This document shows positions 1-35,522 of a stretch of 35,522 bases of DNA, piece after piece (the first letter of the stretch is position 1; each line of letters begins with the position of its first letter). The stretch is from a virus. Location: the IMG/VR virus record IMGVR_UViG_3300006853_000010, positions 1 through 35,522 of that record; one strand, 5' to 3'. The notes below the pieces were generated by a model. It was not told where the DNA came from and did not search any database. It worked only from the letters and a program-made list of their open reading frames with translations. Position numbers and translations under genes: made by a program.

Positions 1-90
1 CGATTCCGTCTCTGTGACCGTCTCCCCGCCTCCAATTTCGTTTCTGACAGATGGCTATATTTTGGTTCAGGGAATTACGCGAGGTCAGCA
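1..90. repeat. Terminal overlap of a circular sequence (left copy)
   Basis: Bases 1-90 are identical to bases 35433-35522. The late gene starting at 35203 reads in frame through the join to its stop at 436, which would not be expected of a true linear end. The repeat is therefore best read as assembly overlap of a circle of 35,432 bp. A 90-bp terminal redundancy of a linear genome is the less likely alternative. Confidence 0.95.
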
Positions 91-436
91 AAGCGACCCT
101 AACAATATTGGCCAGATCGTTCAGAGCTTTGTCGCGCAGACTTTGCCGGCGATCAACACCACTCGCCGCGATCCGGTTGTGATCGACGCGATTCCATCAT
201 CAGCGCAAGGCCGGCCAGATACAGCGCAACCCAATTGGCAACAGTACACGCCGCAGGCTCAGCAGCAACAGGCGCAAGCTGGGGAATGCGATTGGGACAC
301 GCAAGGATTTGGTGATTACCTGGCTTGTCAGTTGGGGATCAATTCGCCAATCGGGGGGATTGCGGCGGGGACGGTTACGGGGCTAGGCGTTGCGCTCCTT
401 GCTGGACTCGGATTTTTGATTTTACTGAAGCGATGA
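1..436 (+). CDS. Tail-anchored late protein, 3' part of a gene crossing the join
   Basis: This is the C-terminal part of a 221-residue protein whose start is ATG 35203. The codon frame here begins at base 2; the GTG at 14 is internal. The middle is a mixed alpha/beta-looking segment, followed by a Gln/Pro-rich stretch (QPNWQQYTPQAQQQQAQ) and a final hydrophobic segment of about 25 residues ending LLAGLGFLILLKR, a typical C-terminal membrane anchor with a basic end. The next gene starts at 433 and overlaps the stop as ATGA, so the two are translationally coupled. I do not recognise the family. Being one of four consecutive late proteins with a C-terminal membrane helix, it is probably a structural membrane protein of the virion (inference). 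Confidence 0.85.
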   Translation, partial: DSVSVTVSPPPISFLTDGYILVQGITRGQQSDPNNIGQIVQSFVAQTLPAINTTRRDPVVIDAIPSSAQGRPDTAQPNWQQYTPQAQQQQAQAGECDWDTQGFGDYLACQLGINSPIGGIAAGTVTGLGVALLAGLGFLILLKR

Positions 437-1635
437 ACTTGACCGATCAAGAGCAAGTGATCTTGAAAGCTATCGGGCCAAACGTGGCTGAAATCTCTCG
501 CGTGATCAAGGCCGTTGGTTATCCGAAGGCGACAGTAAAGAAAGTGCTGGTCAGGCTGAATGAAAAGGGAATTGTTGCTCTCCATCGTCACGATTGGCCA
601 GCTTCGCTGAAGCCTGAGCAACGCAAGTTCATGGTCAAGATCGGGAGCAACTACTACAGCGCGGTAAGTGTGATGAAAAGAAACCCAAAAACAGCAACAG
701 GCAAAGGCAAAACGGCTCTGAAGAAAACGGGGCGCGCATTGAAAGGGCTTGCCAAAGGGGCGCTAAGCGCGGGCGCGCAGATTCTCGGAGCGGGGGCGAC
801 GGCTTTGAATCCATCTCGAAAACGAAAGAAAAACAAGACTGTCATTAGGGCAAAGCGTGTTGTTGTGTTGAATCCGAAAAAGAAGCCGGCAAAGAAAAAG
901 GCCAAGCGCAATGCTTCAAGAGCTATCCCTGTTAAGCCGTCAAAGACACGTCGGGCCAGGTCTTCTAGTCAAACTGGTCGCAAGAAAGCAACGCCCAAAG
1001 TTCGATCCGTGGCTAAGGCTCGCAAGGCTCCGACTCGCAGAGCTTCAAAAAATCCAACGCGCAAAGGCTTGCGGCGGGGATATGGCAAGGCTCGACGTTT
1101 ATCGAAGAAAAGCGGCGACACAAAAAGCATGCGCCTTGCGGCTCGCTACATGAAGCAAAAGGGAATCCCGCACGCGCCACGACCGAAGAGAACAAGGAAA
1201 AATCCTGACGCCGCTTCGATCCGCAAAGAGTTTGCTGGAGCGGTCAACGGAGAGCGGGATTTGTTTTTCCCGCAAGGGACGCCGGCCGGGAAGCTCGCCA
1301 AGCTCGGCAAGTTGGTTTCCATCACGACAGAAGAGGGAACCATCAAGCCTGTCTCCGGTACGGCATGGCTATGCGCTGATACGAGAGGGAAGCTCCACAT
1401 AGGGTCTACTTCCGGCGCGCCACTCTTCGACGGTCCTAAGCGTAGTTTCGGTCACGTAACAAAGCTCGAATACGAAAGCTCAAAGCCTCATCTCGGCTAT
1501 CGCGGGCCGATCATTTGGTTTCATCGAGCCGGGGAGGAGAACGGAATCAAGCCGACATTGCATGCCGATGGCAAGGGCGGGCTTGTGTTCAGGGGCGGTG
1601 ATTACAGGCTGACAAGAAGGGGGATCGAGAACTGA
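433..1635 (+). CDS. Winged-helix and RNP/Arg-Lys-rich late protein
   Basis: This 400-residue protein has three parts. Residues 1 to about 80 look like a winged helix-turn-helix (LTDQEQVILKAIG, then VGYPKATVKKVLVRLNEKGI, a recognition helix pattern of MarR-type domains). Residues about 80-255 are extremely basic and low in complexity, with NP-containing tracts such as SRKRKKNK, NPKKKPAKKKAK and ASKNPTRKGL. The last ~145 residues are a normal-composition globular domain (RLAARYMKQKGIP, later GYRGPIIWFHRAGEENG). ATG 433 is chosen because it overlaps the upstream stop; the frame is open further upstream, but only inside the preceding gene. The composition suggests a virion-associated DNA-binding or DNA-condensing protein; a regulator of late genes is also possible. 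Function is inferred only. Confidence 0.85.
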   Translation: MNLTDQEQVILKAIGPNVAEISRVIKAVGYPKATVKKVLVRLNEKGIVALHRHDWPASLKPEQRKFMVKIGSNYYSAVSVMKRNPKTATGKGKTALKKTGRALKGLAKGALSAGAQILGAGATALNPSRKRKKNKTVIRAKRVVVLNPKKKPAKKKAKRNASRAIPVKPSKTRRARSSSQTGRKKATPKVRSVAKARKAPTRRASKNPTRKGLRRGYGKARRLSKKSGDTKSMRLAARYMKQKGIPHAPRPKRTRKNPDAASIRKEFAGAVNGERDLFFPQGTPAGKLAKLGKLVSITTEEGTIKPVSGTAWLCADTRGKLHIGSTSGAPLFDGPKRSFGHVTKLEYESSKPHLGYRGPIIWFHRAGEENGIKPTLHADGKGGLVFRGGDYRLTRRGIEN

Positions 1636-1928: not shown

Positions 1929-2001
1929 GTTTGCGCGAGTGTGTTAGCTGCGCCGCCGCGCTTGTTTGACACAGCAGCAAGGAGAAGGAGGGCTATTCGA
2001 T

Positions 2002-2751
2002 ATGGCTCTTGTACGTAGACGGGTCGTGAATCCTGCGCCAAGCGTCTTGGCTCTGGTCAACGGCTCCAGAACAAAGAGAGGTAAAACAATGGCTACTCGC
2101 AGAAAGAGAAAAGGTGGCCGTCGTCGGGTTACGCGCGCGCGCTCGCGCAATCCGATCAATCCGGTTAATCCAACAAGGCGGCGGCGTAGAAGTTCACGGC
2201 GTAGATCAACTGTCTACGCTCGCCGTCGTAATCCGATCAATCCCACTCGACGCCGTAGGCGCATTGGTCGCCGTCGCGCTCGCCGTAATCCGGTAACAGG
2301 CGTGCTCGGTCGCGCAATCCCGCTTGTGATCGGCTCGGCAGTCATCGGCGCGACCGCTCCATTCACGGCTCAAATCGTCGGGAGATTCGCGCCGCAATTG
2401 CTCGGCAATCCGATTGGCGTTGCTGCAACGACATTCGGCACAGGATGGGCGCTATCATTGCTGGCCAGGGCGTTCGCGTTTACTCGCAAATGGTCAGATG
2501 ACGTGATGCTTGCCGGCGCAGTGTTGGCGGGCGGGCAACTCTTCACGGCGTATGTCGCCCCGATGATCCCGAGACTTGGAGGGCAGGGGGGAAACGGAAT
2601 GGGCCGGCGTTACTACCGCAACGGAATGATGTCCGGCATTGGTGTGATGACCGGTATCCCACCGGGTATGGCTCTGGCGCCGCCAGTTAATAACAGTGGC
2701 ATGCAGGGCGTAGGGGTAATGACGGCCATTCCTCCGGGGATGCCGCGCTAA
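2002..2751 (+). CDS. Arg-rich basic protein with hydrophobic C-terminal half
   Basis: The N-terminal ~100 residues are nearly all arginine, lysine and repeats of the type RNPINPxRRRRR. They are followed by about 100 residues with two or three hydrophobic segments (IPLVIGSAVIGATAPF; VAATTFGTGWALSLLARAF; DVMLAGAVLAGGQLFTAYV). The C-terminus carries a near-duplicate GIGVMTGIPPGM / GVGVMTAIPPGM. ATG 2002 is chosen because GGAGAAGGAGGG lies 9 bases upstream; ATG 2089, with AGAGAGG upstream, is a credible internal start. Basic head plus membrane part suggests a protein holding packaged DNA against an internal membrane, sited directly before the capsid gene (inference). Length from 2002 is 249 residues. 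Confidence 0.85.
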   Translation: MALVRRRVVNPAPSVLALVNGSRTKRGKTMATRRKRKGGRRRVTRARSRNPINPVNPTRRRRRSSRRRSTVYARRRNPINPTRRRRRIGRRRARRNPVTGVLGRAIPLVIGSAVIGATAPFTAQIVGRFAPQLLGNPIGVAATTFGTGWALSLLARAFAFTRKWSDDVMLAGAVLAGGQLFTAYVAPMIPRLGGQGGNGMGRRYYRNGMMSGIGVMTGIPPGMALAPPVNNSGMQGVGVMTAIPPGMPR

Positions 2752-2809: not shown

Positions 2810-3643
2810 ATGTACGGCGGATATGATAATGCCCCCAACATCGGTTTTACGGGGTCAAATATGGCGGGCTTGCCGACTACACTCGATCAGGTCAACCCCG
2901 GTTACTACAATCAAATCGCGGCGTTCATCGCCAGCAAAGGACCGAATGCCCGCCTTGCGTCGTTCTCAGGTCTTGTGTTGTACGACACGCTGAGAATTGA
3001 CGCGGGCGTACTCCCATCAAGAGACTTCACTTTCTTTACGAACCCTGTCAACGCAACCCAGGGCTTGTTTGTCGCTGGCACTCAGTACACGAAGCAGGAC
3101 ATCGACGTTCACCAATGGGTCACAACGGGCGGTCAGTTGTCCCAAGGGTATGAAGCCTTGATATGGGAAATCGGCGTTCAGTTCCGCATTGTAGGCTCGC
3201 TTGATAACTCGCTGCAAACAGCGGGCAACTTCATCAACCTTGCTCTCGATCCGGGAACACACACAACGGCCGTTGCTGCAGATGGTGTTCTGATGGGGAA
3301 CACGATGCGGGCGTTTCAAGAGAGCTTGTTTTTCAGTTTCTTTATCAATCAGACGAATTTCGAGTTGGGGCCCGGGTGGAGATTCCCGGCCGGCTGTTAT
3401 GGTTCGTCGGGCTTCGCTACAGCGTACTCGGGCGCGACCGCTCCGGCATTTGGGGTCGAGGACGGCTACGCAAACAACGGCTTCGGATGGGCCTATCAAA
3501 TGCCTGTGATGCGGCATCTGCCGCCGCTCACCAAATTCGGAATCAAGATGAGCGTGCAAAACCCGTTTACGACGGCCTTGGTTGGACCTGTGCGAATAGT
3601 CGTCACACTCGGCGGGATCGGCGTCCAGCCTGTGACCGGCTGA
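2810..3643 (+). CDS. Candidate major capsid protein
   Basis: This 277-residue protein is rich in beta-prone, Gly/Asn/Phe-rich segments, has no signal peptide or transmembrane helix, and has the best ribosome site of the late block (AGGAGAAGGAG, 7 bases before ATG). Motifs include YDTLRIDAGVLPSRDFTFF (about residues 57-75), TGGQLSQGYEALIWEIGVQF (about 104-123) and a C-terminal strand pair FGIKMSVQN ... VRIVVTLGGIGVQP. The length is close to that of jelly-roll capsid proteins of tailless phages such as PM2 P2 (269 residues), and a strong terminator follows directly, as is common for a dominant structural gene. No homologue is named from sequence alone; capsid identity rests on context, composition and length. 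The C-terminal strand pattern also occurs in the products of 4202, 4675 and 5753. Confidence 0.6.
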   Translation: MYGGYDNAPNIGFTGSNMAGLPTTLDQVNPGYYNQIAAFIASKGPNARLASFSGLVLYDTLRIDAGVLPSRDFTFFTNPVNATQGLFVAGTQYTKQDIDVHQWVTTGGQLSQGYEALIWEIGVQFRIVGSLDNSLQTAGNFINLALDPGTHTTAVAADGVLMGNTMRAFQESLFFSFFINQTNFELGPGWRFPAGCYGSSGFATAYSGATAPAFGVEDGYANNGFGWAYQMPVMRHLPPLTKFGIKMSVQNPFTTALVGPVRIVVTLGGIGVQPVTG

Positions 3644-3671
3644 TTTCTGACGTTCGGTTCTTCTCATTACT

Positions 3672-3714
3672 TGTGGGGCGAGGCTTTTGCCTTGTCTCGC
3701 CCCACAGTTTTTTT
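3672..3714 (+). terminator. Rho-independent terminator after the capsid gene
   Basis: TGTGGGGCGAG (3672-3682) pairs perfectly with CTCGCCCCACA (3696-3706), with a 13-base loop, followed by seven T at 3708-3714. It lies 28 bases after the capsid stop, inside the late operon, so it probably lets only part of the transcription pass to the downstream genes and sets a capsid-heavy ratio. Confidence 0.9.
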
Positions 3715-3737
3715 CAACGGGAGAAAGAGAGAAAGAC

Positions 3738-3941
3738 ATGAAATACACAATCATCGACAGCAAAAAGAAAACCCTCTTCATTCAACAGAATTACGACAAG
3801 ATCGAAGAAGCTCAAAAGAGGCTTGAGGCATTAAATCAAAAATTCGCCAGTCGCTATTCGCTCGCCATCGTCGGCGTTGACGCTGATGGAAATTTTCAGG
3901 ATCTAGCAGACAAAGCGCCAAGCAAAACACCGAGCAAATAG
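3738..3941 (+). CDS. Small acidic/basic helical protein, unknown
   Basis: This 67-residue protein starts at ATG 3738, after GAGAAAGAGAGAAAG. It opens with a short beta hairpin (MKYTIIDSKKKTLFI), continues with an amphipathic helix (KIEEAQKRLEALNQKFASR) and ends with a low-complexity tail (KAPSKTPSK). It is the first gene after the terminator and 12 bases ahead of the next gene. I do not recognise it. Confidence 0.75.
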   Translation: MKYTIIDSKKKTLFIQQNYDKIEEAQKRLEALNQKFASRYSLAIVGVDADGNFQDLADKAPSKTPSK

Positions 3942-3953
3942 GAGTCTCCATTC

Positions 3954-4190
3954 ATGAACCCTGTAAAACAAATCGGTCGCTATCAGTTGCCCATTCTCAA
4001 CGTCGTGGCGATCTCGCTCCGAACAGGCTGGCGCGCATGGCTCAGGCCGGGATACGACGCAACATTGATCAATGGCCATGTGATTCATTTGACCGAAGAA
4101 GAGAAGGCCCAATTAGACCAAGAACGCGAAACGCATGAAACCGTCATGCAGATCTACGGAATGGCGAAAGGCTTAGGGCTTCGCACGTAG
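3954..4190 (+). CDS. Small late protein, unknown
   Basis: This 78-residue protein has AGGAG 9 bases before ATG 3954. It contains a hydrophobic N-terminal third (LPILNVVAISLRTGWRAW) and a helical, charged C-terminal half (LTEEEKAQLDQERETHE). The hydrophobic part is short and broken by Arg residues, so it is not convincing as a membrane segment. It sits between the capsid gene and the beta-rich protein genes. Function unknown. Confidence 0.75.
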   Translation: MNPVKQIGRYQLPILNVVAISLRTGWRAWLRPGYDATLINGHVIHLTEEEKAQLDQERETHETVMQIYGMAKGLGLRT

Positions 4191-4201
4191 TGGGGGAAGC
4201 A

Positions 4202-4678
4202 ATGTATTATTTCAATAAGTTTACTTACAAGATTCTCGATCTCTATCAGACACACCTGATCTTTTTTGACACTATCCCAATTGGCTTTGCCGGAGTCGCA
4301 AGCGAACGACCAGCGCCGGTCTTTACCAACGAAGTATCAGAGGATGTGCTGTACTTCGGCGGGGAATTGAGCTTTAGCAATGCCGGTGTGTTGGTCAGAA
4401 TCAAGGCCATCAGCCCGCAATATGAATGGATGGTCAACGATGACGCCTTGCCGCAAGACACCCCGGCTAATGCCGTGTTTGGCGTGTTCTCGCAATCTCT
4501 CCCAATAATCCCTTGGGTATCTCCGTTTTTTCTGAAGAAACAAGGAAGGCTTCAATTGCAATGGACAAATTCAGCCGCCGCGCCAACAACAGGCGGCTTT
4601 GTGACGTTGCATGGTCTTCGGCTAACGAACCCTGTCAACGGGTCAGGATGGGATTACGCTATGGGGCTGACTTCATGA
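4202..4678 (+). CDS. Beta-rich capsid-type protein A
   Basis: ATG 4202 is preferred over GTG 4190 because GGGGGAAG lies just upstream; the product is 158 residues. The protein is beta-rich. Its C-terminal third reads SPFFLKKQGRLQLQWT ... GGFVTLHGLRLTNPVNGS and matches the pattern of the N-terminal half of the next protein (LPEAFFLPRGVQLKLDWT ... ASLTMIGVQLINPKQGS). An N-terminal pattern is also shared (DVLYFGGELSF versus DVLILGMSALVF). This indicates homology by duplication. The size suits a single jelly-roll minor or major capsid subunit or a vertex protein (inference). Its stop overlaps the next start as ATGA. Confidence 0.75.
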   Translation: MYYFNKFTYKILDLYQTHLIFFDTIPIGFAGVASERPAPVFTNEVSEDVLYFGGELSFSNAGVLVRIKAISPQYEWMVNDDALPQDTPANAVFGVFSQSLPIIPWVSPFFLKKQGRLQLQWTNSAAAPTTGGFVTLHGLRLTNPVNGSGWDYAMGLTS

Positions 4679-5751
4679 ATCGAAAGACTAAAACTTGCCG
4701 AATAGAAACCGGGGATCTTGTGACCTCCATGCTGTGTGGGCCTAAGTGGTCGCCCTACGCGCAGGCTATTGCGGATCATTATCCTGTTCAGATGCCATGG
4801 TATCTGACAAAAACTGTGAACTTATCCGATACTGGCGCTGTCAGCCCGCGATTCACTCAGATCACAAGTCCGCAGTTGCATGATGTCTTAATATTGGGAA
4901 TGTCGGCTCTCGTCTTCAATACACCGCTTTTTACCGACAACGGGAACTTTATTTATTTAAATATAACCGATAAAGAAACCGGCATTCCATGGGTTGCGCC
5001 CAACACAATTGGCTATGCGCCTTTGCCGGCCTTTGCCGGTGTCAACCTTCCTACAGTTGGCCCATCGTTGGTGAATCTATCGACAACGCCCATTATCAAA
5101 TTGCCCGAAGCGTTTTTTTTACCGAGGGGTGTACAACTCAAACTCGACTGGACGGCTATCGCGAGCAATGTCAGTGTGGTCAACAGAAGCGCATCGCTAA
5201 CCATGATCGGGGTTCAGTTAATCAATCCAAAGCAGGGAAGCAAGGCCCCAAGCCATGTGACCATGCCCAATGGCGATACTATTCCGGTTGGCTCCCGCAT
5301 GCCGTGGTTTGGATGCGTTCCGTTCGGCGGAAAACTTTCAACTGGCGTGATAAGAGGTTTCAACAATTTTACTCTACCGATTGGCCAGCAATTGTTACAG
5401 TTTTTTCCACCGCTTGATTGCAATGTTGAAATGCATGATAGCTACGGAAATTTTCTAGTCTCGCCTACGGCTTATGATGGGCTGGCGGGCGCTGGGTTTC
5501 CCACCACCTTTTTAACTATGAAATTTACGGACATGGGCGCTGAAAACGATTGGACCCCAGGGCTATCCCCCACACCGGCATTGTTGGGCAAAGAAACAGA
5601 TGTTCAGCCTGTCATGCCGTTTCCCAAACCTGCTTATTTGGAAACGGGACATCGAACGGCTTTTACAGCGCAAAATAATACGACGGCTGTCGCCGGCCAG
5701 GTCAATCAAGGGACGGTGACAATCAGAGGGGTAAGGCTCTGCGAGTACTGA
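4675..5751 (+). CDS. Beta-rich capsid-type protein B, two-domain
   Basis: ATG 4675 overlaps the previous stop (ATGA) and gives 358 residues; the frame is open further upstream but only within gene A. The protein holds two similar halves. The first, about residues 50-205, resembles protein A and ends IGVQLINP; the second, about 225-358, ends QGTVTIRGVRLCEY after PKPAYLETGHRTAF, the same strand order in weaker form. Two tandem beta-sandwich domains in one chain recall the route from single to double jelly-roll capsid proteins, but I cannot verify the fold from sequence. It could equally be a penton or spike-base protein. No transmembrane segment. Confidence 0.75.
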   Translation: MNRKTKTCRIETGDLVTSMLCGPKWSPYAQAIADHYPVQMPWYLTKTVNLSDTGAVSPRFTQITSPQLHDVLILGMSALVFNTPLFTDNGNFIYLNITDKETGIPWVAPNTIGYAPLPAFAGVNLPTVGPSLVNLSTTPIIKLPEAFFLPRGVQLKLDWTAIASNVSVVNRSASLTMIGVQLINPKQGSKAPSHVTMPNGDTIPVGSRMPWFGCVPFGGKLSTGVIRGFNNFTLPIGQQLLQFFPPLDCNVEMHDSYGNFLVSPTAYDGLAGAGFPTTFLTMKFTDMGAENDWTPGLSPTPALLGKETDVQPVMPFPKPAYLETGHRTAFTAQNNTTAVAGQVNQGTVTIRGVRLCEY

Positions 5752-5752
5752 T

Positions 5753-6286
5753 ATGTTGCAAACACTTCACATAAAAAAAATCGTTGAGCTTTGTCATCCG
5801 GAGTCGCTAAAAGAAGCGATAGAACTTCAACATAATATCAAGCCCGTTAAATTCGGCGATCGCATTGGTTGGGCTGCCGGTACAGTCTCTTTCGCTAGTT
5901 ATCAGATTCCCGAAGACGCCGCTTACATGCTGGTCTTGCGTACCGAGTGTTATGTGTTTACTGAAGTCGCGGCCGCTCCGGGCTTCGGGATGTTTTCCCC
6001 GCCGCCGTTCGCCTCCGGATTCTGGACGTATACGGACATTGCCGTCGGAACGAATGCCTCATATCAACTGACGCCAACTTTACCTCTTCATATTCTTTGT
6101 GACACCGACGAAATTTTATTCGCTAAAGGCGATCACAATCTGTCACTGACGGTCACACTCGGCGCCGCTCCGGATGCAAACGCCCGATTTATTCGAACTC
6201 TGGTTTATGGCTATATGATCGGGGCTAAGATCGCGGATCGAATTGGCGGCAATGAATCAACTTATTTCAGCACACTAAGCTCTTGA
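5753..6286 (+). CDS. Beta-rich capsid-type protein C
   Basis: This 177-residue protein starts one base after the previous stop (TGATATG). A short charged N-terminal region (LCHPESLKEAIELQHNI) precedes a beta-rich domain. The end reads LPLHILCDTDEILFAKGDHN ... RFIRTLVYGYMIG, again the pattern of a strand, a turn, then a final hydrophobic strand seen in proteins A and B. It is probably a third, more diverged paralogue in a capsid gene cluster (inference). No membrane segment. Confidence 0.75.
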   Translation: MLQTLHIKKIVELCHPESLKEAIELQHNIKPVKFGDRIGWAAGTVSFASYQIPEDAAYMLVLRTECYVFTEVAAAPGFGMFSPPPFASGFWTYTDIAVGTNASYQLTPTLPLHILCDTDEILFAKGDHNLSLTVTLGAAPDANARFIRTLVYGYMIGAKIADRIGGNESTYFSTLSS

Positions 6287-6494: not shown

Positions 6495-8234
6495 ATGGCC
6501 TCATCGAAACTTTCAGCGCTGGTTAGCCTGGGAGCGAATCAAGTCCCCACTGATTTGCTCTATATCGATGATGTGTCAGCTGGCGCGGCGGGGTCAAAAT
6601 CAATTACGCCTAACGACCTGCTTGCGCTCATTACGCGCAATATAACCGATGGCGCCCTCAGATTCGGAGCTTTTGCGGCGCCGGCCGTCTCAGGAGCGGC
6701 GCAGGGCGCGATCTATTTCGACTCGGCCACGAATCGACTTTTGTTCTCAGAAAACGCTGGCGCTTACATTCGAATCGGCAATGTGACCGGGCCAGCGGCG
6801 GCGACAGACGAAGCCCTGACTCGTTTTGATGGCGCGACGGGCCGTCTGATTCAAAACAGCAATATCACACTAAATGACGCTGGCGTACTCACGTTTCCCG
6901 ACGACATCAGACAAGTTTTCAATCCGGGCGCGACGGTCGCCGGCTTGAACGTTGGCGCGCTCGCCGGCGATCCTTCGACGCCGATCAATGGCGATTTGTG
7001 GTACGACTCAACCGGCAACTTGCTCCGGGCCAGGATCAACGGCGCAACTGTCAGTCTAGGCGCGGGCGGCGGCGGAACTCCGGGCGGCGCGGATACTCAG
7101 ATTCAATTCAACAACGCCGGCGCGTTTGATGGGGTGACCGGCTTCACGTCGAATGGAACGAACGTTACGGCGGGATCTGGCAATCTCCGGGCGACCAGAC
7201 CGCAGTTTACGACTTCAATTGACGACAGCGCGGGCAATGAATTCTTTTTGCTAACAGCCACAGGAAGCGCGGTAAACGAATTTGCCGTGGCCAATGCCGC
7301 AACGGGCAACGGGCCAATACTCAGCGCAACAGGCTCAGACGCGAATGTTCCAATCACGGTCTCGCCAAAGGGGGCAGGGATTCTTGAATCAACCGGACCA
7401 TTACGCCTGAGTGGTTCCGGGAGTGACACCTTTACAACTCCGGCAGCGAACAACGTTCCCACAAAAATCAATATTCCCGTTTACGATCCAGGCGCTTTCG
7501 GACAGATCGTTGCGATGGGAATCGGTAATATAGGGACTAATCGCCGGGTTCTCAGTCTATTCGATGCGCGCACGGTTGTTCATCAACCCACTTTGGCTAT
7601 ATTCACGCCCGATGAAAACAACTTAGCGGGTTTCTCATGGGAAGGCAGCAATTCAGAGCTAACGTTTAAAACCACAGTCACGAATGGTGTAATTCGCTTT
7701 AGCGATGGGACAAGCAGCGCGCAAGTATTAATCGCCCCTGCGGCGACTTCGGCGGGCGGCGGATTTTTACATGTCGTGTCAGCGAGCGCTGGCGGCGTTG
7801 CGCTTAGAGCCGATAGCGCGGCCACTCCTACTGTCGATATTGCCCGATTCACGATCAATGGCTCTACGAGCGTGGGGACTTATACCGGAATCGCCAAAGG
7901 TGGGACGGTGTTTACGCCTCGAAACGCCGTCACGGGCGCAGCCGGCGGAACGACCAATCTTGATTTTTCGCTTGGCAACATTCAGCAATTCACCTTTGGC
8001 GCGGGCAATGAGACTTTGACTTTCTCGAACATTCCAAACTCCGCAAAACTGACAATCGTGATCATTCAAGACGGAACAGGCTCCCGAACCTTGACATGGC
8101 CGGCGACGGCTAAGTTTATCGGCGGCGTTGCTCCCACACTTTCTGCGGCTGCCGGGGCGCGGGACATCATCAATTTCTATTCAGATGGGACAAATATTTA
8201 CCAGACGAGCGCGATCGCGCTCGCTGTGGCTTGA
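6495..8234 (+). CDS. Spike or receptor-binding fibre protein
   Basis: This 579-residue protein is rich in Gly, Ala, Thr, Asn and Ser with many short beta segments. Its parts recall phage tail-fibre shafts: AQGAIYFDSATNRLLFSENAG, GGADTQIQFNNAGAFDGVTG, STPINGDLWYDSTGNLLRA. The N-terminal MASSKLSALVSLGANQVPTDLLYIDDVSAG resembles the start of the product of 8630 (MASSKLTALSDLAIPALTDEMYIV), so both likely use the same attachment domain on the particle. The C-terminus (GNETLTFSNIPNSAKLTIVIIQDG, TGSRTLTWPATAKFIGG) is like distal fibre domains. As no tail genes are present, I interpret this as a vertex spike. Confidence 0.75.
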   Translation: MASSKLSALVSLGANQVPTDLLYIDDVSAGAAGSKSITPNDLLALITRNITDGALRFGAFAAPAVSGAAQGAIYFDSATNRLLFSENAGAYIRIGNVTGPAAATDEALTRFDGATGRLIQNSNITLNDAGVLTFPDDIRQVFNPGATVAGLNVGALAGDPSTPINGDLWYDSTGNLLRARINGATVSLGAGGGGTPGGADTQIQFNNAGAFDGVTGFTSNGTNVTAGSGNLRATRPQFTTSIDDSAGNEFFLLTATGSAVNEFAVANAATGNGPILSATGSDANVPITVSPKGAGILESTGPLRLSGSGSDTFTTPAANNVPTKINIPVYDPGAFGQIVAMGIGNIGTNRRVLSLFDARTVVHQPTLAIFTPDENNLAGFSWEGSNSELTFKTTVTNGVIRFSDGTSSAQVLIAPAATSAGGGFLHVVSASAGGVALRADSAATPTVDIARFTINGSTSVGTYTGIAKGGTVFTPRNAVTGAAGGTTNLDFSLGNIQQFTFGAGNETLTFSNIPNSAKLTIVIIQDGTGSRTLTWPATAKFIGGVAPTLSAAAGARDIINFYSDGTNIYQTSAIALAVA

Positions 8235-8617: not shown

Positions 8618-8638
8618 ATGGCAAGATAGATGGCAAGC
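8615..8638 (+). repeat. 12-bp tandem duplication over a start codon
   Basis: TAGATGGCAAGA (8615-8626) is followed by TAGATGGCAAGC (8627-8638). The first copy contains the stop of the previous gene and an ATG that reads Met-Ala-Arg-stop; the second holds the working ATG 8630. This duplicated a stop/start junction and created a three-codon mini-frame that may aid re-initiation. Confidence 0.7.
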
Positions 8639-9259
8639 TCAAAACTCACAGCATTATCAGATTTGGCCATTCCGGCTCTGACCGATGAAATGTACATCGT
8701 CAGGCCGTCTGATGGCGCGGCTGGCTCTCGTAGCGTCACGTTGACGAACCTGCGGGCTTTTTTGTTGGGCGGCGTTCGGGACAATATAGAAGTCAATATG
8801 TCGACAGTTGGTAATGTCGATGCAGGCCCCGATGTTCTGCATACCTTCACTCTCGGCGCTGGCAGTCTAGCGGCAAACGAGGATTATCTGTGGTTGCGCT
8901 ACGCCGGGGCGTTTGCCGCGAATGCAAACACTAAAACATTGATTATACTTTTCGGTGGCCAGACGGTTAGCAATCTTGCTCAGATCCAGAATGGAGGCGC
9001 ATGGGTGTATGACATAATTTATACGCGCGTCTCCGACACCACGGTTCGATGCGCGAGTCAAATATCCTGGGGAAGGCTGCGCAGGCCTTCAGGAGGGGCG
9101 CTCACGGATGACGGCCTGCTCACTGGAGAAGTTGCGCTAATAACCGTAGCTGACTTGGATACAACGGCAATGATCTTGGAAGTCCAGGGCGGCAACGCTG
9201 GATCTGCAACCGATGACACCGTTCAGAATCTCTCAATTATTGAGCTTGTTAAAAATTAA
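8630..9259 (+). CDS. Second spike-like protein with shared N-terminus
   Basis: This 209-residue protein begins MASSKLTALSDLAIPALTDEMYIV, matching the N-terminal attachment segment of the 579-residue spike. The remainder is a single beta-rich domain (VLHTFTLGAGSLAANEDYLWL, later DTTVRCASQISWGR, ending TVQNLSIIELVKN) of the sort found at the tips of phage fibres. Two proteins with one shared anchor and different heads suggest either two receptor specificities or one long and one short spike. No membrane segment. Confidence 0.75.
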   Translation: MASSKLTALSDLAIPALTDEMYIVRPSDGAAGSRSVTLTNLRAFLLGGVRDNIEVNMSTVGNVDAGPDVLHTFTLGAGSLAANEDYLWLRYAGAFAANANTKTLIILFGGQTVSNLAQIQNGGAWVYDIIYTRVSDTTVRCASQISWGRLRRPSGGALTDDGLLTGEVALITVADLDTTAMILEVQGGNAGSATDDTVQNLSIIELVKN

Positions 9260-9402: not shown

Positions 9403-9591
9403 ATGAAAGAACAATCAACAGACATTTCTATTCTGCCAGCGTCGGCTGATTCAAACCAGATTGAGATTGTTTGCCCCGAGTGTGGCAAAGGCGGCATATG
9501 GGCTTTTCCCGAGGGTTTTCAAGTCGTCATAGAGGGAACATTACTTGTGACATGTTCAAACGGTCATCAGTGGGGGATCTGTAATGGCTGA
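9403..9591 (+). CDS. Small zinc-ribbon-like protein
   Basis: This 62-residue protein contains VCPECGKGG and, 25 residues on, VTCSNGHQWG. The spacing CxxC ... CxxxH is that of a zinc ribbon. Its stop region overlaps the start of the transglycosylase by 8 bases, so the two are coupled. Role unknown; a small structural or DNA/RNA-binding protein is possible. Confidence 0.75.
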   Translation: MKEQSTDISILPASADSNQIEIVCPECGKGGIWAFPEGFQVVIEGTLLVTCSNGHQWGICNG

Positions 9592-10120
9592 CAGGCTGAC
9601 AACAGAACAACTGAGACAGTTGGTTGTCTCCAAGGCCAATCAGTACGGAATCAATCCGGGCATCGCCCTTGCGCAGATCGCGCGCGAATCGGCCAGCTAT
9701 CGCCCCGATGTCGTCTACGGTCCTTTTGTCGGCGGCGCCGGCGAGCGGGGTATGTCTCAGTTCACGCCAGGCACATGGGCGCGCTTTGGCTCCGGGCCGC
9801 ACACCAATGCATATGATCCGGTCAAAGCGATGGACGCATGGGGAAAGTACATGGCCTATCTCTTGAGTCTCTTTCCAAGTGATTATTCAAAAGCCCTGAC
9901 GGGCTATAACGGCGGTGAGGGCCACATCACCAACCCGGAGAGATACGGGGCCCCATCGCAGGCCGCGCAAAGATATGCCCGAGAGATCTTAGCCCAAGCA
10001 GGTTGGACGGCTGATTCTGTTGTTCGTCTTGATCGGATCGAAGTCTCTTCAGGCGACTTTCCAATCTGGCTTATAATTGGCGCGGCTGGATTATTAGTCT
10101 GGTTTGCTTTTAGTGACTGA
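9584..10120 (+). CDS. Membrane-anchored lytic transglycosylase
   Basis: This 178-residue protein has an SLT/goose-lysozyme-like domain: catalytic glutamate E35 in ALAQIARESASYR, GMSQF at 56-60, YNGG at 108-111. This family cleaves the MurNAc-GlcNAc bond of peptidoglycan with formation of 1,6-anhydroMurNAc. The C-terminus (about 160-176, PIWLIIGAAGLLVWFAF) is one transmembrane helix. There is no signal peptide. A virion transglycosylase with a membrane helix is the arrangement of P7 in phage PRD1, so this is most likely an entry enzyme carried in the particle rather than a lysis enzyme, though it may serve both. Last gene of the late operon; a terminator follows. Confidence 0.9.
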   Translation: MADRLTTEQLRQLVVSKANQYGINPGIALAQIARESASYRPDVVYGPFVGGAGERGMSQFTPGTWARFGSGPHTNAYDPVKAMDAWGKYMAYLLSLFPSDYSKALTGYNGGEGHITNPERYGAPSQAAQRYAREILAQAGWTADSVVRLDRIEVSSGDFPIWLIIGAAGLLVWFAFSD

Positions 10121-14028: not shown

Positions 14029-14054
14029 CTTTACAAAAGGTTTTTATTGTTAAG
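14029..14054 (-). promoter_or_regulatory. 26-bp dyad repeat, copy 3
   Basis: CTTTACAAAA-N6-TATTGTTAAG on the + strand. It covers the last codons and stop of the RNA ligase gene, so the repeat has been kept inside coding sequence. Confidence 0.75.
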
Positions 14055-14597
14055 AGCCCGCTTCAGGCCGAAGTCTTTCTTTTTGATCTTCACCATGCGG
14101 CCGTCTGGATGATGCCAAACGATGCCCTCAATATCTCGATCAGCAAGAAAAGCCTTGATGCCCTCGAAATCGCGCGGAGCGTCAAGACTCTCTTCGCCGT
14201 GCAACATCAAATAGTGTTTGTCGTAGCCCTCCGGATTCCCCTGAACCTTCGGGCCGCACAGTTCATATGTGCCATTGAAGCCCTGACGTATGTTTTCCCA
14301 TCCTTCACGAAACCATCTATCCTCCGGGCCGTCTCCGACCGGCAACCATCCGGGCCAATGGCCGGTGACCGGATCAGGATCTTGCGCCGGCTCGAATCCG
14401 ACAGGCGGCCTCTTTCCTTTCTTCGCGTCATATCGCTTGTAGAGCTTCCCGTCTCTCACAAGGCAACACGTTCCGTCATATTTGCGTGTAGCAACGCCCT
14501 CGCCGGCGATGACCCACTCAGCGCCAGGGACAATTTCATCTCTCACAAGCTTGTCTGTTTCGTAGTTGCGTTTGAATAGTGAAATAATCTTTTCCAT
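14031..14597 (-). CDS. RNA ligase (nucleotidyltransferase superfamily)
   Basis: Start at ATG 14597 with GAGGGGAG 10 bases upstream (the TTG at 14606 is not needed); 188 residues. The covalent nucleotidyl transferase motifs are present in order: motif I RKYDGT with Lys39 as AMP acceptor, motif IIIa TYELCG (110-114), motif IV IEGIVWHH (156-162), and motif V MVKIKKKDFG (168-177). It is short and lacks a C-terminal domain, like the small RNA ligases of the DUF5565/Rnl1-like type in phages. Likely role: sealing cleaved tRNA or other RNA after host anticodon-nuclease attack. No partner polynucleotide kinase is seen in the window. It could act on nicked DNA, but the motif style favours RNA. Confidence 0.85.
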   Translation of the reverse strand: MEKIISLFKRNYETDKLVRDEIVPGAEWVIAGEGVATRKYDGTCCLVRDGKLYKRYDAKKGKRPPVGFEPAQDPDPVTGHWPGWLPVGDGPEDRWFREGWENIRQGFNGTYELCGPKVQGNPEGYDKHYLMLHGEESLDAPRDFEGIKAFLADRDIEGIVWHHPDGRMVKIKKKDFGLKRALNNKNLL

Positions 14598-14625
14598 CTT
14601 CTTCAATCTCCCCTCTGTTGTTTGT

Positions 14626-18525: not shown

Positions 18526-19053
18526 TTATCGAATCCTGAGATGATTGCCGCGCTCGCCCAGGCCAGCGCCATGCGTCTCTTCATCGTTCCGAATCGCTTC
18601 CCGAATCGCTTCCCGATCCAACTCGATCACGCGACGCTGAAAGGCTTCAGGCGCAGCGGCTGGCTCGTGCTCCCATTCTTTAGGCAATATCAGGGGGAGG
18701 GCGCCGCCGTTCTGGGCGACAGTCAGCTTGAAATGCTCGGTTTGCATCTTCGATAGGCCGCACATTTCGAGGAAGAGCTTCAGACGGGATTTCAGCCGCT
18801 TTGCCTCATTGATGTCAGCGCCGGCCGAAGCCATGAGCGCTTTCGCCGCTTCCTCACGAATACTCGACCGTCCTTCGAATTCGCGGATCAGCCAGCAAAT
18901 GCTGTTTACTTTCTTGTCGAGTGAGATGTTTGTTTCGGAGAGCCACTGATCAATCGCGGCCTCGGCTTCGTCGTTCGGCAGTTCGCCGCCGCATTCTGTC
19001 AATAGATCGTGAAGGGCTAAGATTTCATCTACTATCTGAAACAGTGTCGACAT
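18526..19053 (-). CDS. Siphovirus Gp157-like protein
   Basis: This 175-residue protein has the pattern of the Sipho_Gp157 family: a helical N-terminus, then DKKVNSICWLIREFEGRSS, a long coiled-coil-like stretch (EEAAKALMASAGADINEAKR), LKSRLKLFLEMCGLSKMQT and a short beta segment EHFKLTVAQNGG followed by prolines. The family occurs in phage early regions next to recombination and replication genes; the original member was reported to affect phage resistance in streptococci, while the biochemical role remains unclear. Its start follows AAGGAGAAAATAA, which overlaps dyad copy 5. Confidence 0.85.
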   Translation of the reverse strand: MSTLFQIVDEILALHDLLTECGGELPNDEAEAAIDQWLSETNISLDKKVNSICWLIREFEGRSSIREEAAKALMASAGADINEAKRLKSRLKLFLEMCGLSKMQTEHFKLTVAQNGGALPLILPKEWEHEPAAAPEAFQRRVIELDREAIREAIRNDEETHGAGLGERGNHLRIR

Positions 19054-19090: not shown

Positions 19091-19969
19091 TTATTCGCAA
19101 GCCGCGTAATGTGCCAGGCACAAGCGCGGCTCCATCTCCGCTAGTTGCGATTGATACAGGCCGTCAACATCGGGCGCGCTTCCCTTGGCTCTATATCCAG
19201 ATTTCGCCCAGGCAACCACATCATCAATCGTGCAAACCTTGACCGGCTTCCCCTCCGCCGAGATGTAGGTTGCGCTTCTGTACCGCATCGGCACTTTGTT
19301 TGAGGCGAAGAAACTCTGCGGCTGCCCGCTCATCTCTTTCAGTTTCGCCTCTAAATTCCTGATCTGGTCAATCCGCTCGGGATGATGTTGAATCAATCCT
19401 CTCAATTCACTTTTCCCCGAGTTGATGCAAGGAAAACAACCGACACGCTTTGCGCCCTGATAATAGAGAGGGTTTAAAGGGATGTTGTATTTAGCATGAA
19501 TGATCAAAACGTCTTCGATCTTCCAATCAATCAACGGTCGCCATTCACGCATGCCGAAATAACTTTCAAGCGGATCTCCCCACTCGGTCAGTTTCGCCCG
19601 CTCAAAACTCTCGCCCCGGCGCACGCCGGAGCAAGGAATAACTTCGCCGTATTCTTCAGACAGGTTTTCAAGGTGTCGCTTGGTCGGAATCAGTTTCAGT
19701 TCCTTGGTGCAGAATCGCCGGTGGTTGTTCGGAAAAATCTTGTGCTTTATGACGGCATTCTCAAAGCCTTCAGTTTCGAGCCATTGAATTGGAAAGACCT
19801 TCGCTGAGAGCATCGCTATGTGGTCGTAAGTTTCTGTCGCTTCGTTCCGCGTATCACAGAACGTCGCTTGCATCTGCTCTCGCGGAATCCCCGACTCATA
19901 GACCATCCACAGCAACAAGGCCGTCGAATCTTTTCCGCCCGATATTCCGATGTGATAGAGCCTGTCCAT
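19091..19969 (-). CDS. PAPS reductase/DndC-like adenine nucleotide hydrolase
   Basis: Start ATG 19969 (upstream frame to 20014 runs through the dyad); 292 residues. The PP-loop SGGKDST (residues 10-16) identifies the adenine nucleotide alpha hydrolase fold. RRFCTKELKLIP and VGCFPCINSGKSEL follow, as in phage and plasmid PAPS-reductase-family proteins related to DndC, which bind ATP and often a metal or iron-sulphur cluster through the cysteines. Here the cysteines are FCTK and CFPC. In phages such proteins have been proposed to modify DNA or to counter host defence, but no DndDE genes accompany this one, so its role is open. Linked to HNH upstream. Confidence 0.87.
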   Translation of the reverse strand: MDRLYHIGISGGKDSTALLLWMVYESGIPREQMQATFCDTRNEATETYDHIAMLSAKVFPIQWLETEGFENAVIKHKIFPNNHRRFCTKELKLIPTKRHLENLSEEYGEVIPCSGVRRGESFERAKLTEWGDPLESYFGMREWRPLIDWKIEDVLIIHAKYNIPLNPLYYQGAKRVGCFPCINSGKSELRGLIQHHPERIDQIRNLEAKLKEMSGQPQSFFASNKVPMRYRSATYISAEGKPVKVCTIDDVVAWAKSGYRAKGSAPDVDGLYQSQLAEMEPRLCLAHYAACE

Positions 19970-19971
19970 CT

Positions 19972-19997
19972 CTTTACCTTTGGATTGTTTCGTTAAG
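19972..19997 (-). promoter_or_regulatory. 26-bp dyad repeat, copy 6
   Basis: CTTTACCTTT-N6-TTTCGTTAAG on the + strand. It overlaps the TAA stop of the HNH gene and ends 3 bases before the PAPS-reductase-like start. Outer six bases of each arm fit the consensus; inner bases differ. Confidence 0.65.
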
Positions 19998-20343
19998 ACT
20001 GAAACGGCAACCACTGTTCGCCACGCGCCAGCCTTGCCGCTATCCGATTCTCGACGCGCCGGCGCATATGATCATCACGGTCAAAATCCAAATGACACTT
20101 CTGACAAAGCGCGGCCAAGTTCTCTTCCCTCACGTCATGCAAATCGTCTTTACTCCCAGGCTTCCCATCGGGCTTATCGATCCCCAAGTGAGCGACAGTC
20201 AAAATCACTTTGCTGCCTGTGATCGGATGAGGCTTGTAGTTTTCGGCTCCGCACCACTCGCAACGATTCTCTGCCCTCTCGAATCGCAAACGGCGGCTGA
20301 TCTCATGCCAGTCAGAAGGATAAAGTTTGTAGTCGATCGGCAT
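19993..20343 (-). CDS. HNH endonuclease
   Basis: This 116-residue protein contains CEWCG (28-32), AHLG with His52, and a C-terminal NLAALCQKCHLDFDRDDH (75-92): the two CxxC zinc pairs and the HNH catalytic residues of a McrA-like nuclease. The GGAG ribosome site is 8 bases upstream. Stand-alone HNH proteins of this size occur in phages near packaging or replication genes; here it is the first gene beyond the candidate origin, so a nicking or recombination role in replication is possible. It may alternatively be a free-standing homing nuclease. Confidence 0.88.
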   Translation of the reverse strand: MPIDYKLYPSDWHEISRRLRFERAENRCEWCGAENYKPHPITGSKVILTVAHLGIDKPDGKPGSKDDLHDVREENLAALCQKCHLDFDRDDHMRRRVENRIAARLARGEQWLPFQS

Positions 20344-24616: not shown

Positions 24617-25061
24617 GGGTTTCTCCTTTATTGGGCGGCTCAAGAGCTTCAATTGCCGCGCTCGATGGATGGCCGGGCCATCGTTCATCTTGGCCAATAA
24701 ATACGATGTGAAAATATGGCGTTGAGCCAAGCGGGTCGCGCGAAGTGATTACCGGGTCTTCTGTTTCATCCCAATTATCAGTGTTGGCGTAAAACTCTAA
24801 CGCCTTGCCATAGCGGGCCGCTCTCTCTTCGGCTTCCCTACGCTCTTTGACTGCAATTCGCACTAGACCGTCATGCTTTGCGCATTCAATCCCATCGCGT
24901 TCTGTGATCAGTTCGCGCAGGCGTTCGATCTCGGCTTCGGCCTTCTCTGCGCGCTGTCTGGCTTCAGTTATTTTGGCGTTGGCGTTGTCCCATCCATCTA
25001 TCGTGTCTGATACTTTATCGAGAATTTTTCTTTGGCGTCTTCTCTTCAATTGATCACTCAT
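24606..25061 (-). CDS. Coiled-coil protein with C-terminal globular domain
   Basis: This 151-residue protein starts at 25061 behind GGGGGGAAGTACAA. The N-terminus is basic (LKRRRQRKILDKV), followed by a long coiled coil (EARQRAEKAEAEIERLRELI, VKERREAEERAARYGKALEF) and a short strand-rich end (GSTPYFHIVFIGQDERWPGH). No family recognised. It overlaps the 34-residue membrane protein gene by 11 bases. Confidence 0.75.
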   Translation of the reverse strand: MSDQLKRRRQRKILDKVSDTIDGWDNANAKITEARQRAEKAEAEIERLRELITERDGIECAKHDGLVRIAVKERREAEERAARYGKALEFYANTDNWDETEDPVITSRDPLGSTPYFHIVFIGQDERWPGHPSSAAIEALEPPNKGETHEQ

Positions 25062-25366
25062 TTGTACTTCCCCCCATTGATGATCGTCGTAAGTGTGTTT
25101 TGAATCGCCCTCCGTCTCCGGCGTCTCTCGCTCAATAAATCAATCACGGCCATCTCTTCGCGGGTCGCTCTCTCTTCGGCCCTGCGAACTTGCGCGGCCA
25201 TCCAGCGTTGAACGGCGTTGAAGGAGAAGACCACGCGACCACCCAACTTGATGCGCGGAATTGAATCCGTCCCGCATCTCCCCTTCTTCACGGTATGAAG
25301 ATCAAGGCCGATCAGTTCAGCGACCTCTTTGAAGCTCAGAAAGCGGTCGGGTGTTTTAGAGGGCAT
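25058..25366 (-). CDS. MerR/excisionase-type helix-turn-helix protein
   Basis: Start ATG 25366 behind AAAAAGGAGCAATAGCC; 102 residues. Residues 8-55 (FLSFKEVAELIGLDLHTVKK, RIKLGGRVVFSFNAVQRWM) form the HTH_17/excisionase-type fold used by Xis and MerR-like DNA-binding proteins. The C-terminal half is basic with RRRRRR. It could be an excisionase for the integrase at 28542 or an early transcription regulator; location in the early operon fits either. Confidence 0.82.
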   Translation of the reverse strand: MPSKTPDRFLSFKEVAELIGLDLHTVKKGRCGTDSIPRIKLGGRVVFSFNAVQRWMAAQVRRAEERATREEMAVIDLLSERRRRRRAIQNTLTTIINGGKYK

Positions 25367-25949
25367 GGCTATTGCTCCTTTTTGCGACTTCACAAAGCCA
25401 TTCGGCCAATGCTTGCGGAGTATGCTCGCGTTCTGATTTTGTTATTTCGGGTCGCTTGCCGTCCGCTTTTCGTTTTGAACTCTTCACAACGAAAAGCGGA
25501 TCGCCCATGCAATAAGGGATTGATGGCAAATCGGCCGGCTCAATTCCGACGATATAAAGCCAGGTGGCCTTATCCGCTTTGTGTCCAAACCACCATTGCG
25601 AAACCCAAAGCGTATAGCCGTTGAAATCGTCTCTCTCGTTTTGGTATGGCAATCGTGCGGCTTCCCAAAGTGTCGAACCAGCTGGATGTTCCAACACTCC
25701 ACCCCACTTGCGAACTTGCTCAACGGCCCACAACGCAAGCTCTCGCTCTCCATCTCTCGGCTTGGCTAAGTGTCGAAGCCTGCCCCAGGCTCTACACGGT
25801 GGATGAGCAATCACCGGACAGCCTCCGGGCCAATTGCGAGCGTCACGATTGATGTCCCATACGTCGCAATCGGGTAGCGATTTATAGATGGAATCTGTTC
25901 TTGCGAAGAGTACGGCAATCATATGCAGACACGTCTGTACGTGCGCCAT
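25356..25949 (-). CDS. Putative methyltransferase-like protein (AHPPCRAW type)
   Basis: ATG 25949 is the upstream start; ATG 25922 (MIAVLFARTDSIYK) fits the family better, but neither has a good ribosome site. Residues include CPVIAHPPCRAWGRLRH, GERELALWAVEQVRKWGG and VLEHPAGSTLW. These blocks characterise a phage/bacterial family usually annotated as hypothetical; the PPC motif before a helix and the EHP motif resemble cytosine-C5 methyltransferases (PC and ENV motifs), so a Rossmann-fold methylase or nucleotide-binding enzyme is possible. This is an inference. It overlaps the HTH gene by 11 bases. Confidence 0.65.
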   Translation of the reverse strand: MAHVQTCLHMIAVLFARTDSIYKSLPDCDVWDINRDARNWPGGCPVIAHPPCRAWGRLRHLAKPRDGERELALWAVEQVRKWGGVLEHPAGSTLWEAARLPYQNERDDFNGYTLWVSQWWFGHKADKATWLYIVGIEPADLPSIPYCMGDPLFVVKSSKRKADGKRPEITKSEREHTPQALAEWLCEVAKRSNSHAL

Positions 25950-33086: not shown

Positions 33087-33701
33087 ATGGCGGCTTTGGG
33101 CGCGACTTATCCCACGACGGCACGCGATCATCATCTCGCTGTCAATCTGTTCGCGCCCGCCGTCTCCCTTCCTGAGCCTGCGATTATTTACTCCCCGCTG
33201 GCTGAGGGCGCAGGCGGGACTTGGCAAACACTCGCGGCGATGCAAGCTTGCGTGTTGGGCCAAGTCCCGCCTGATTACTCAGGCTATCAGGACGAATTCA
33301 ATATCAGCGCGGCGGATGCAATCTGCGCCAATGCTCCCGGCCAAGAAGCATTGGCGCAGATTGCCGCGCTGTTCAAGTGGGTGACTCAGAACATCACCTA
33401 TGAGCCTCATCCCTTCAATCAACAAATTTGCCAGGACGCTAGACGCACACTCGAACTGAGAAAGGGCGACTGCGTAAGCCTGTCAGTATTGCTCGCAACT
33501 CTGTTGGCCTGTGTGGGCTATCAATCACAGTTCGTCACGCAATTTGTCGATGGCGAAGACGCTTCGCACGTCTACGTCGAAGTGTTTTTACCGAGCGGTG
33601 AAACGCTCGCGCTCGATGCGGTTGCCGATGACAAACCAATGGGATGGAGACAACCCACACTCGATGGTGGTTTTGAAGTTGAATGGCCGATTTTTACTTA
33701 G
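33087..33701 (+). CDS. Transglutaminase-like protein, first late gene
   Basis: This 204-residue protein has the transglutaminase-like triad: Cys129 in RKGDCVSLSVLLATLL, His161 in DASHVYVEVFL and Asp177 in TLALDAVADD. The preceding helix WVTQNITYEPHP is typical of the fold. Such proteins act as peptidases, cross-linkers or, in phages, as proteins of unknown function in the structural cluster. In this operon it could cross-link or process virion proteins. There is no signal peptide. Start ATG 33087 with GAGG upstream. Confidence 0.85.
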   Translation: MAALGATYPTTARDHHLAVNLFAPAVSLPEPAIIYSPLAEGAGGTWQTLAAMQACVLGQVPPDYSGYQDEFNISAADAICANAPGQEALAQIAALFKWVTQNITYEPHPFNQQICQDARRTLELRKGDCVSLSVLLATLLACVGYQSQFVTQFVDGEDASHVYVEVFLPSGETLALDAVADDKPMGWRQPTLDGGFEVEWPIFT

Positions 33702-34267: not shown

Positions 34268-35203
34268 ATGGGAATGGAACAAGGCGCATATATTGATGGA
34301 GATAGTGGCTCCGATTTTACCTATGGCTATGGGGGTGGGGGCGATGAGTTCGCCATTGATTACGCGGCTGATTATGGCGGCGCGCAGAATTACACAAGTG
34401 ACGGCGACTTGTTTGGCGCTTACTACGATTATTACATGGGCATGGGCCTCGATCCGTCGCAAGCTGCGAGCTACGCGGCCGAGGACGCCACGGCGGGCTC
34501 AATCGAGATTCCGACTTATGAACAAGCCCCATTGCCTGACATCTCATTGCCGTCTTACGGATTGCCTTACATCCCTAATTACGATTATTGGCAATCGCCG
34601 CCTTACATCCCGGTATTTTCGGATTTGCCGACCCCACAGCCTCCGGTAGGGTCTTTGCCTCAATCGCCTGCAACGCAACAACCAAACTTACCTCCGGCAT
34701 GCCCAGGCGGATACTACCATCCATATCCAATAGGGCATCCGCAGCAAAATGAGTGTAGGCCCTTTCCACCTGCGCCGACTCCGGCGCCGGCGCCGCCTCA
34801 ACAAAGGCCGCAACAACCATCGTCGGGCGGGGGAGCGCAAGCTCCCAGGCCACCACAGCAACAATGCCCAACGGGTCAATATCGCGATCAGGCGACAGGT
34901 CAATGCAAACCGATTCCGCAGGGACAACCGCAACAGTGTCCAACGGGCTACTACAGGGCGCCAAGCGGTCAATGCATGCCCATACCTCGATGCACGACTC
35001 TGGGAACTACCTTTGATCTGTCGAGAGGGATTTGTGTCCCACAGGGCCAGGCTGTTTTGCCTGCGCCGAGCGAAGCCGATGACCTCTTAGCGAATCTGAA
35101 AAAACTTCCGTGGTGGATCTGGCTCGCGCTCGGAGGCTTTCTGTTGTTGGGCCGGGATGAAGACGGAAGGACAACGACAGTCAGATATAGGAGGGCATCT
35201 TGA
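34268..35203 (+). CDS. Large tail-anchored protein with four Cys-pair repeats
   Basis: This 311-residue protein begins acidic and Gly/Tyr-rich (about 1-90), passes through a Pro/Gln-rich linker (PPVGSLPQSPATQQPNLPPA, then PAPAPPQQRPQQPSSGGGAQ) and carries four related C...C units: CPGGYYHPYPIG...C, CPTGQYRDQATGQC, CPTGYYRAPSGQC and CTTLGTTFDLSRGIC. The units resemble small disulphide-bonded carbohydrate- or chitin-binding repeats. It ends with a membrane helix LPWWIWLALGGFLLLG and a basic tail. It is probably a virion surface or spacer protein anchored in a membrane. The start follows TAGGAAATAGTC; the stop overlaps the next ATG. Confidence 0.8.
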   Translation: MGMEQGAYIDGDSGSDFTYGYGGGGDEFAIDYAADYGGAQNYTSDGDLFGAYYDYYMGMGLDPSQAASYAAEDATAGSIEIPTYEQAPLPDISLPSYGLPYIPNYDYWQSPPYIPVFSDLPTPQPPVGSLPQSPATQQPNLPPACPGGYYHPYPIGHPQQNECRPFPPAPTPAPAPPQQRPQQPSSGGGAQAPRPPQQQCPTGQYRDQATGQCKPIPQGQPQQCPTGYYRAPSGQCMPIPRCTTLGTTFDLSRGICVPQGQAVLPAPSEADDLLANLKKLPWWIWLALGGFLLLGRDEDGRTTTVRYRRAS

Positions 35204-35522
35204 TGGGTTGTAGTTGCGAACAATCAGGCATGAGTGGTTGCTGCGGTTCGGGGCTGAGCGGTTTGTATGGCCTTGATCGCCTGATGGGCGCTTTGCTTGC
35301 CCCAGGATCACAAGTCCGCGTGGGCTTCGCCTATGAATCAGTGGCCACACAGAGCCAGATCAATCAGGGCTTAGAGCGGCCTGTGTATATTCAAGACATG
35401 CTCCGAAATAGCCTGCTCGAAGCGGGTATTTTCGATTCCGTCTCTGTGACCGTCTCCCCGCCTCCAATTTCGTTTCTGACAGATGGCTATATTTTGGTTC
35501 AGGGAATTACGCGAGGTCAGCA
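35203..35522 (+). CDS. Tail-anchored late protein, 5' part of the gene crossing the join
   Basis: ATG 35203 overlaps the previous stop (TGATG) behind AGGAGGGCATC. The N-terminus is Cys/Gly/Ser-rich (MGCSCEQSGMSGCCGSGLSG), followed by LDRLMGALLAPGSQVRVGFA and YIQDMLRNSLLEAGIFDSVS, which continues in frame to base 2 of the window. The whole protein has 221 residues (81 here plus 140 there). The N-terminal cysteine cluster has no recognised motif; it might carry disulphides or a metal. The C-terminal anchor is described at 1-436. Confidence 0.85.
   Translation, partial: MGCSCEQSGMSGCCGSGLSGLYGLDRLMGALLAPGSQVRVGFAYESVATQSQINQGLERPVYIQDMLRNSLLEAGIFDSVSVTVSPPPISFLTDGYILVQGITRGQ
35433..35522. repeat. 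Terminal overlap of a circular sequence (right copy)
   Basis: Identical to bases 1-90; see the left copy. Confidence 0.95.

Follow-up and report, generated by a model that had tools for sequence, protein, structure and literature searches.

Related single and tandem jelly-roll domains encoded by overlapping genes in a putative capsid module of a closed phage genome

The locus analysed here raises the question of whether a one-barrel and a two-barrel protein encoded side by side in a virus are built from the same domain, and what such a pair may say about the origin of double jelly-roll (DJR) capsid proteins. This origin is debated between the fusion of viral single jelly rolls and descent from a cellular double jelly roll, and a published case for the latter rests on structure comparison (PMC8812541). 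The window, by which we mean the whole stretch of 35,522 nucleotides that was analysed (IMG/VR record IMGVR_UViG_3300006853_000010), contains the genes of protein A (4202..4678, + strand; 158 aa from the ATG) and protein B (4675..5751, +; 358 aa), and the A stop codon and the B start codon overlap as ATGA. Protein A is predicted to contain one jelly-roll domain with an N-terminal helix and is a paralogue of both halves of B. Protein B, the likely major capsid protein (MCP), is predicted to be a tandem (double) jelly roll, with a first jelly roll, B1, at residues ~26-192 (4750..5250, +) and a second, B2, at residues ~193-358 (5251..5748, +). A sequence-only reading of this DNA had proposed that A and the two halves of B, and more distantly the 5753 product and the end of the 2810 product, arose by domain duplication, and that the single and tandem versions represent the intermediate expected in the origin of double-barrel capsid proteins. 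The sequence strings that it quoted and the four open reading frames (ORFs) were present at the positions where it had placed them.

The relationship of A to both halves of B was recovered well above chance. Profiles made from one part at a time were searched against 1,665 ORFs from six genomes and against their reversals. The A-only profile found B in all six genomes, matching one stretch per half (E 3e-10 to 8e-8), the first-half stretch being often weak when taken singly. In the reciprocal searches, A was found in all six genomes by the B2-only profile (E 4e-10 to 2e-7) and, more weakly, by the B1-only profile (E 2e-5 to 5e-3), and the best E-value among the reversed ORFs was 0.6. As no part was trained on another, this result is stronger than the profile-profile scores, which were obtained with six sequences per protein. 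The A-B2 score was 65 over 65 columns, against a best of 22 in 200 column shuffles and 44 in 200 ten-column block shuffles; the A-B1 score was 39 over 98 columns, against 22 and 27 in the same numbers of shuffles. The direct comparison of B1 and B2 was weak (24.9, with a best of 21 among 80 shuffles). The two halves thus hardly recognise each other directly, and A forms the bridge between them.

The structure models agreed with this relationship. Protein A was modelled as residues 465-622 of an artificial read-through that joined 2810 and A, which lie in the same frame (table 4, TGA = W), with pLDDT mostly 70-80 in the strands. The model of B had a mean pLDDT of 64 and a pTM of 0.70, and B1 was better modelled than B2. 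The strands of the A, B1 and B2 models followed the same order and were in register along the three-way alignment, as was the N-terminal helix in the models of A and B1. The expectation that A and both halves of B would be predicted as jelly rolls was thereby borne out, with a common strand order and capsid-type fold matches. Convergence of unrelated beta-sandwich proteins on a similar arrangement would be in keeping with the low identities of A to B1 and B2 (22-23%) and with the fact that much of the signal is carried by the C-terminal part. However, the reciprocal profile matches, which occur in each of the six genomes and far exceed the reversed and shuffled controls, and the several A-B1 matches that cover almost the entire domain (e.g., 5-148 of 157) make convergence highly improbable. 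The analysis supports a relationship among A, B1 and B2 and a jelly-roll fold for all three.

The best fold matches listed for the A model were SPV1 (Z 8.0), HCIV-1 (7.1), SH1 (6.9), HHIV-2 (6.8) and P23-77 (6.3). All five are vertical single jelly-roll capsid proteins and ranked ahead of other jelly rolls, although matches at Z 6-8 can reflect a common arrangement. The B model matched the STIV MCP (Z 10.8, 247 residues, 4.4 A, VIA), PRD1 P3 (Z 9.9), PBCV-1 (8.2) and FLiP (8.2), in each case across both halves (VIA). The first Foldseek matches for B included the PR772 capsid chain, and also the STIV coat and the Wip1 MCP. A BFVD match to B was I1ZBI0, of 256 aa, the same length as SSIP-1 gp47. 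These models support B as a probable tandem of two jelly rolls; the two tandem jelly rolls that mark DJR capsid viruses were found in B by fold only, in a model of moderate quality. Cellular double jelly rolls matched B equally well (PHM Z 11.1, DUF2961 10.4, PNGase F 9.0). The fold is therefore no proof of a capsid role, which for B rests on the genomic context.

The family proposed by the sequence-only reading did not extend beyond A and the halves of B. Protein C (5753..6286, +; 177 aa) lies directly after B and is conserved in all six genomes, and the 277-aa product of 2810..3643 (+) is one of the best conserved in the module and a candidate second capsid protein; neither has a detectable relation to A or B. 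Among the 1,665 ORFs of the six genomes and their reversals, the profiles of these two products matched only their own families. Their profile-profile scores against A and B were mostly reached by shuffles; the B2-C score exceeded those of 40 column shuffles, yet block shuffles reached it. Neither product was listed by a profile of the C-terminal hairpin that A, B1 and B2 share. The 2810 part of the joint read-through model had a pLDDT of ~30 and no usable fold; the BFVD search with the joint model was uninformative. A match of 2810 in a phage collection was at chance level (E 0.6). The PDB sequence search returned nothing for 2810 or B, and B had no Pfam match. No relatives of B outside IMG/VR were found in the annotated phage, plasmid and genome-contig collections searched, nor any of A in the phage or genome-contig collections searched.

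The first 90 nucleotides of the window (1..90) are repeated identically at its end (35433..35522), so that the contig closes on itself at 35,432 bp. Seven related IMG/VR contigs were collected, of which five were distinct enough to be aligned with the window (six genomes in total). These five carry terminal direct repeats of 123-127 nt. The direct repeats of 90-127 nt at the ends of all six contigs indicate closed genomes of 34.2-39.6 kb. The relatives retain the 427, 1966, 2810, 3954, A, B, C and SLT genes, and the gene order is the same wherever the loci allow it to be read.

Several of the conserved genes encode possible virion proteins. The 427..1635 product (+) is very basic (24% K+R), has five NP motifs and is a possible DNA-binding virion protein. 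The 1966..2751 product (+) is likewise very basic (19% K+R), with repeated NP motifs and one hydrophobic stretch whose hydropathy lies at the scan threshold, and is possibly a membrane- or DNA-associated virion protein. The NP motifs of these two products read RNP, KNP and INP. An SLT transglycosylase with a C-terminal hydrophobic anchor (9584..10120, +) is possibly a virion-borne wall-cutting enzyme, and a transglutaminase-like protein (33087..33701, +) could be a maturation protease or a cross-linker. A Pro/Gln-rich protein (34268..35203, +) has a C-terminal hydrophobic stretch by eye that lies below the hydropathy-scan threshold. All five are present in 6/6 genomes. Several window proteins have single hydrophobic stretches, and two tyrosine integrases are encoded in the window.

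Other genes of the window were annotated in passing. The fibre-like genes 6495-8234 and 8630-9259 have their first ~50 residues in common (46% identity), and the C-terminus of the 6495-8234 product matches tail-fibre families. On the minus strand there are an RNA-ligase-like protein (14031-14606), a Mu Gam-like end-protection protein (18526-19053), a PAPS-reductase-domain protein (19091-20014) and a replication-type protein (20823-23114) that has, besides a DnaB N-terminal domain, the unusual P-loop-like stretch GQSGCFKS. In the phage collection, the latter protein matched two short contigs of faecal phages; a different P-loop protein takes its place in some related genomes. A helix-turn-helix (HTH) protein (25058-25393, -; 111 aa) had an excisionase family as its best match and a weak match to a terminase small subunit (E 3e-4).

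Searches for terminase, portal and packaging ATPase families returned no match. Terminase_6N and Phage_portal had none in seven records including the six genomes, and FtsK_SpoIIIE had none in eight records including the six genomes; the control genomes were positive in both cases. PHROGs or Pfam scans of 42 window proteins gave no capsid, portal or large terminase match, and the two PHROG 'head and packaging' matches were an endolysin-domain protein and the weak small-terminase match of the HTH protein. No Walker A protein common to all the genomes was found; the Walker A motifs of credible proteins sit in replication-type proteins that are not present in all of them.

Our favoured reading, at a probability of about 0.55, places 2810-6286 within the capsid-shell module of a phage that has no tail, probably contains a membrane and carries a circular genome of ~35 kb; A, B1 and B2 would have arisen from a common domain by duplication. 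The lack of terminase, portal and FtsK matches, together with the integrases, the anchor of the SLT protein and the hydrophobic stretches, points to a tailless, temperate and probably membrane-containing phage. In such a particle, trimers of B would form six-sided capsomers with upright barrels over an internal membrane vesicle, and A would most likely be the five-fold vertex (penton) protein, present as pentamers, or else a second capsomer subunit together with B. A jelly-roll penton beside a DJR MCP is the usual plan in DJR viruses (PMC9719478). A chain of the PRD1-type penton (P31) was absent among the best 50 fold matches listed for A, which is not an exclusion. Enclosure of the DNA would proceed with no recognised packaging ATPase, as has been proposed for FLiP and the Odin group, which also lack one (PMC5894146). 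The capsid-forming roles of A and B, their pentameric and trimeric states and the internal membrane are inferred.

The same two genes might instead build a helvetiavirus-like shell with two MCPs, in which A would be the small one-barrel subunit (VP7/VP16-like), B the large stacked two-barrel subunit (VP4-like), and the two together would form mixed capsomers. The best fold matches of A are capsid proteins of these viruses, HCIV-1 VP4 has two stacked jelly rolls and VP7 one (PMC6414509), and the genes of A and B adjoin and overlap. We nevertheless consider this arrangement unlikely: over both of its halves, the B model superposes on the side-by-side double jelly rolls of STIV, PRD1 and FLiP; a VP4-type chain was absent among the best 50 matches listed for B, although this is not an exclusion; and no packaging ATPase was found here, whereas helvetiaviruses encode FtsK-HerA ATPases (PMC8812541).

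Conservation raises a different doubt about the role of B. The identity of the 2810 product is 60-89% across all the relatives, against 41-86% for B, and in the distant relatives the conservation of 2810 is similar to that of A and exceeds that of B. The 2810 product could thus be the main capsid protein, with A, B and C as vertex, spike or minor shell jelly rolls, and its low content of basic residues (4% K+R) and strand-rich appearance by eye would suit such a role. As the double jelly-roll match belongs to B, and as neither a homologue nor a fold was detected for 2810, we hold this assignment to be doubtful. It is quite improbable that A and B are carbohydrate- or receptor-binding jelly rolls of spikes or fibres and not part of the shell. 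While the B model scores as well against double jelly rolls from carbohydrate enzymes as against capsid proteins, and the downstream genes 6495 and 8630 resemble fibre or spike genes, A and B are conserved in a fixed order with 2810, 1966 and 427, and Pfam or PHROGs detected no other capsid protein among the scanned proteins of the closed genome.

Under the favoured reading of a capsid-shell module, A, B1 and B2 would have descended by duplication from one single jelly-roll domain. An unrooted tree of A, B1 and B2 resolved B1 and B2 each as one group on a long stem (2.96 and 2.58), while the stem of A was short; the tree method warns of long branches meeting. This grouping and the stem lengths suggest that the split predates the six genomes and that A has changed least. 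The part of the duplication claim that concerns the kinship of A, B1 and B2 stands, while the direction from A to B does not follow from the data. As an unrooted tree of three groups leaves the direction undecided, and with the split older than the six genomes and the stems of B1 and B2 very long, the interpretation of the pair as an intermediate in the origin of double-barrel capsids is not demonstrated. Three histories would fit the data: A was duplicated and fused, A derives from one half of B, or the duplication is old and took place in cells. For viral double jelly rolls in general, structure comparison favours a common ancestor with cellular DUF2961 (PMC8812541). With a single and a double version that are still related in sequence within one genome, the origin becomes approachable by sequence trees, given more members, and the overlapping one-barrel and two-barrel genes are a good place to test how double-barrel capsids arose.

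In genome size, circularity and architecture, the nearest known phage is SSIP-1, a tailless, membrane-containing phage of 100 nm with T = 49 and two MCP types (PMC6260650, PMC6356626). Its circular dsDNA genome of 44 kb encodes an integrase and a PAPS reductase, as the window does; the annotated PAPS reductase is gp25, and the window protein with this domain is that of 19091-20014 (-). NP motifs occur in the SSIP-1 structural proteins gp41 and gp44, as they do in the 427-1635 and 1966-2751 products. Unlike the genomes described here, SSIP-1 carries an annotated ATPase (gp40). The comparison of 2810, A, B and C with 28 SSIP-1 proteins gave no significant relation (best E 0.07-0.2), and the scores of the three best pairs were reached by 10-71 of 2000 shuffles.

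The large terminase and portal protein that characterise tailed phages (Caudoviricetes) were not found in the searches made. The Helvetiavirae (P23-77, SH1, HCIV-1 and HHIV-2), which with SPV1 supply the best fold matches of A, combine a small one-barrel with a larger capsid protein, as A and B would; they differ in that the B model is a side-by-side tandem and that no FtsK/HerA ATPase was found here. Of their two vertical single jelly-roll MCPs, the A model would fit one, and the barrels of the B model appear to be placed as in DJR proteins. DUF2961/GH172, PNGase F and PHM have the same overall fold as B, but are cellular enzymes; DUF2961 is a proposed relative of viral DJR capsid proteins (PMC8812541). 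The MCPs of STIV, PRD1 and FLiP are matched by B over both barrels, and sequence similarity between a single jelly-roll protein and the MCP barrels is not mentioned for PRD1, PM2, STIV or FLiP in the literature consulted. An FtsK/HerA ATPase, usual though not universal in DJR viruses, was not found here. The known prokaryotic members have genomes below 20 kb, roughly 7-18 kb (PMC8812541, PMC5894146), a descriptive and not a defining limit, compared with 34.2-39.6 kb here. The present group, which has no recognised packaging ATPase, appears to bring closed genomes of 34-40 kb into the range of prokaryotic double jelly-roll phages.
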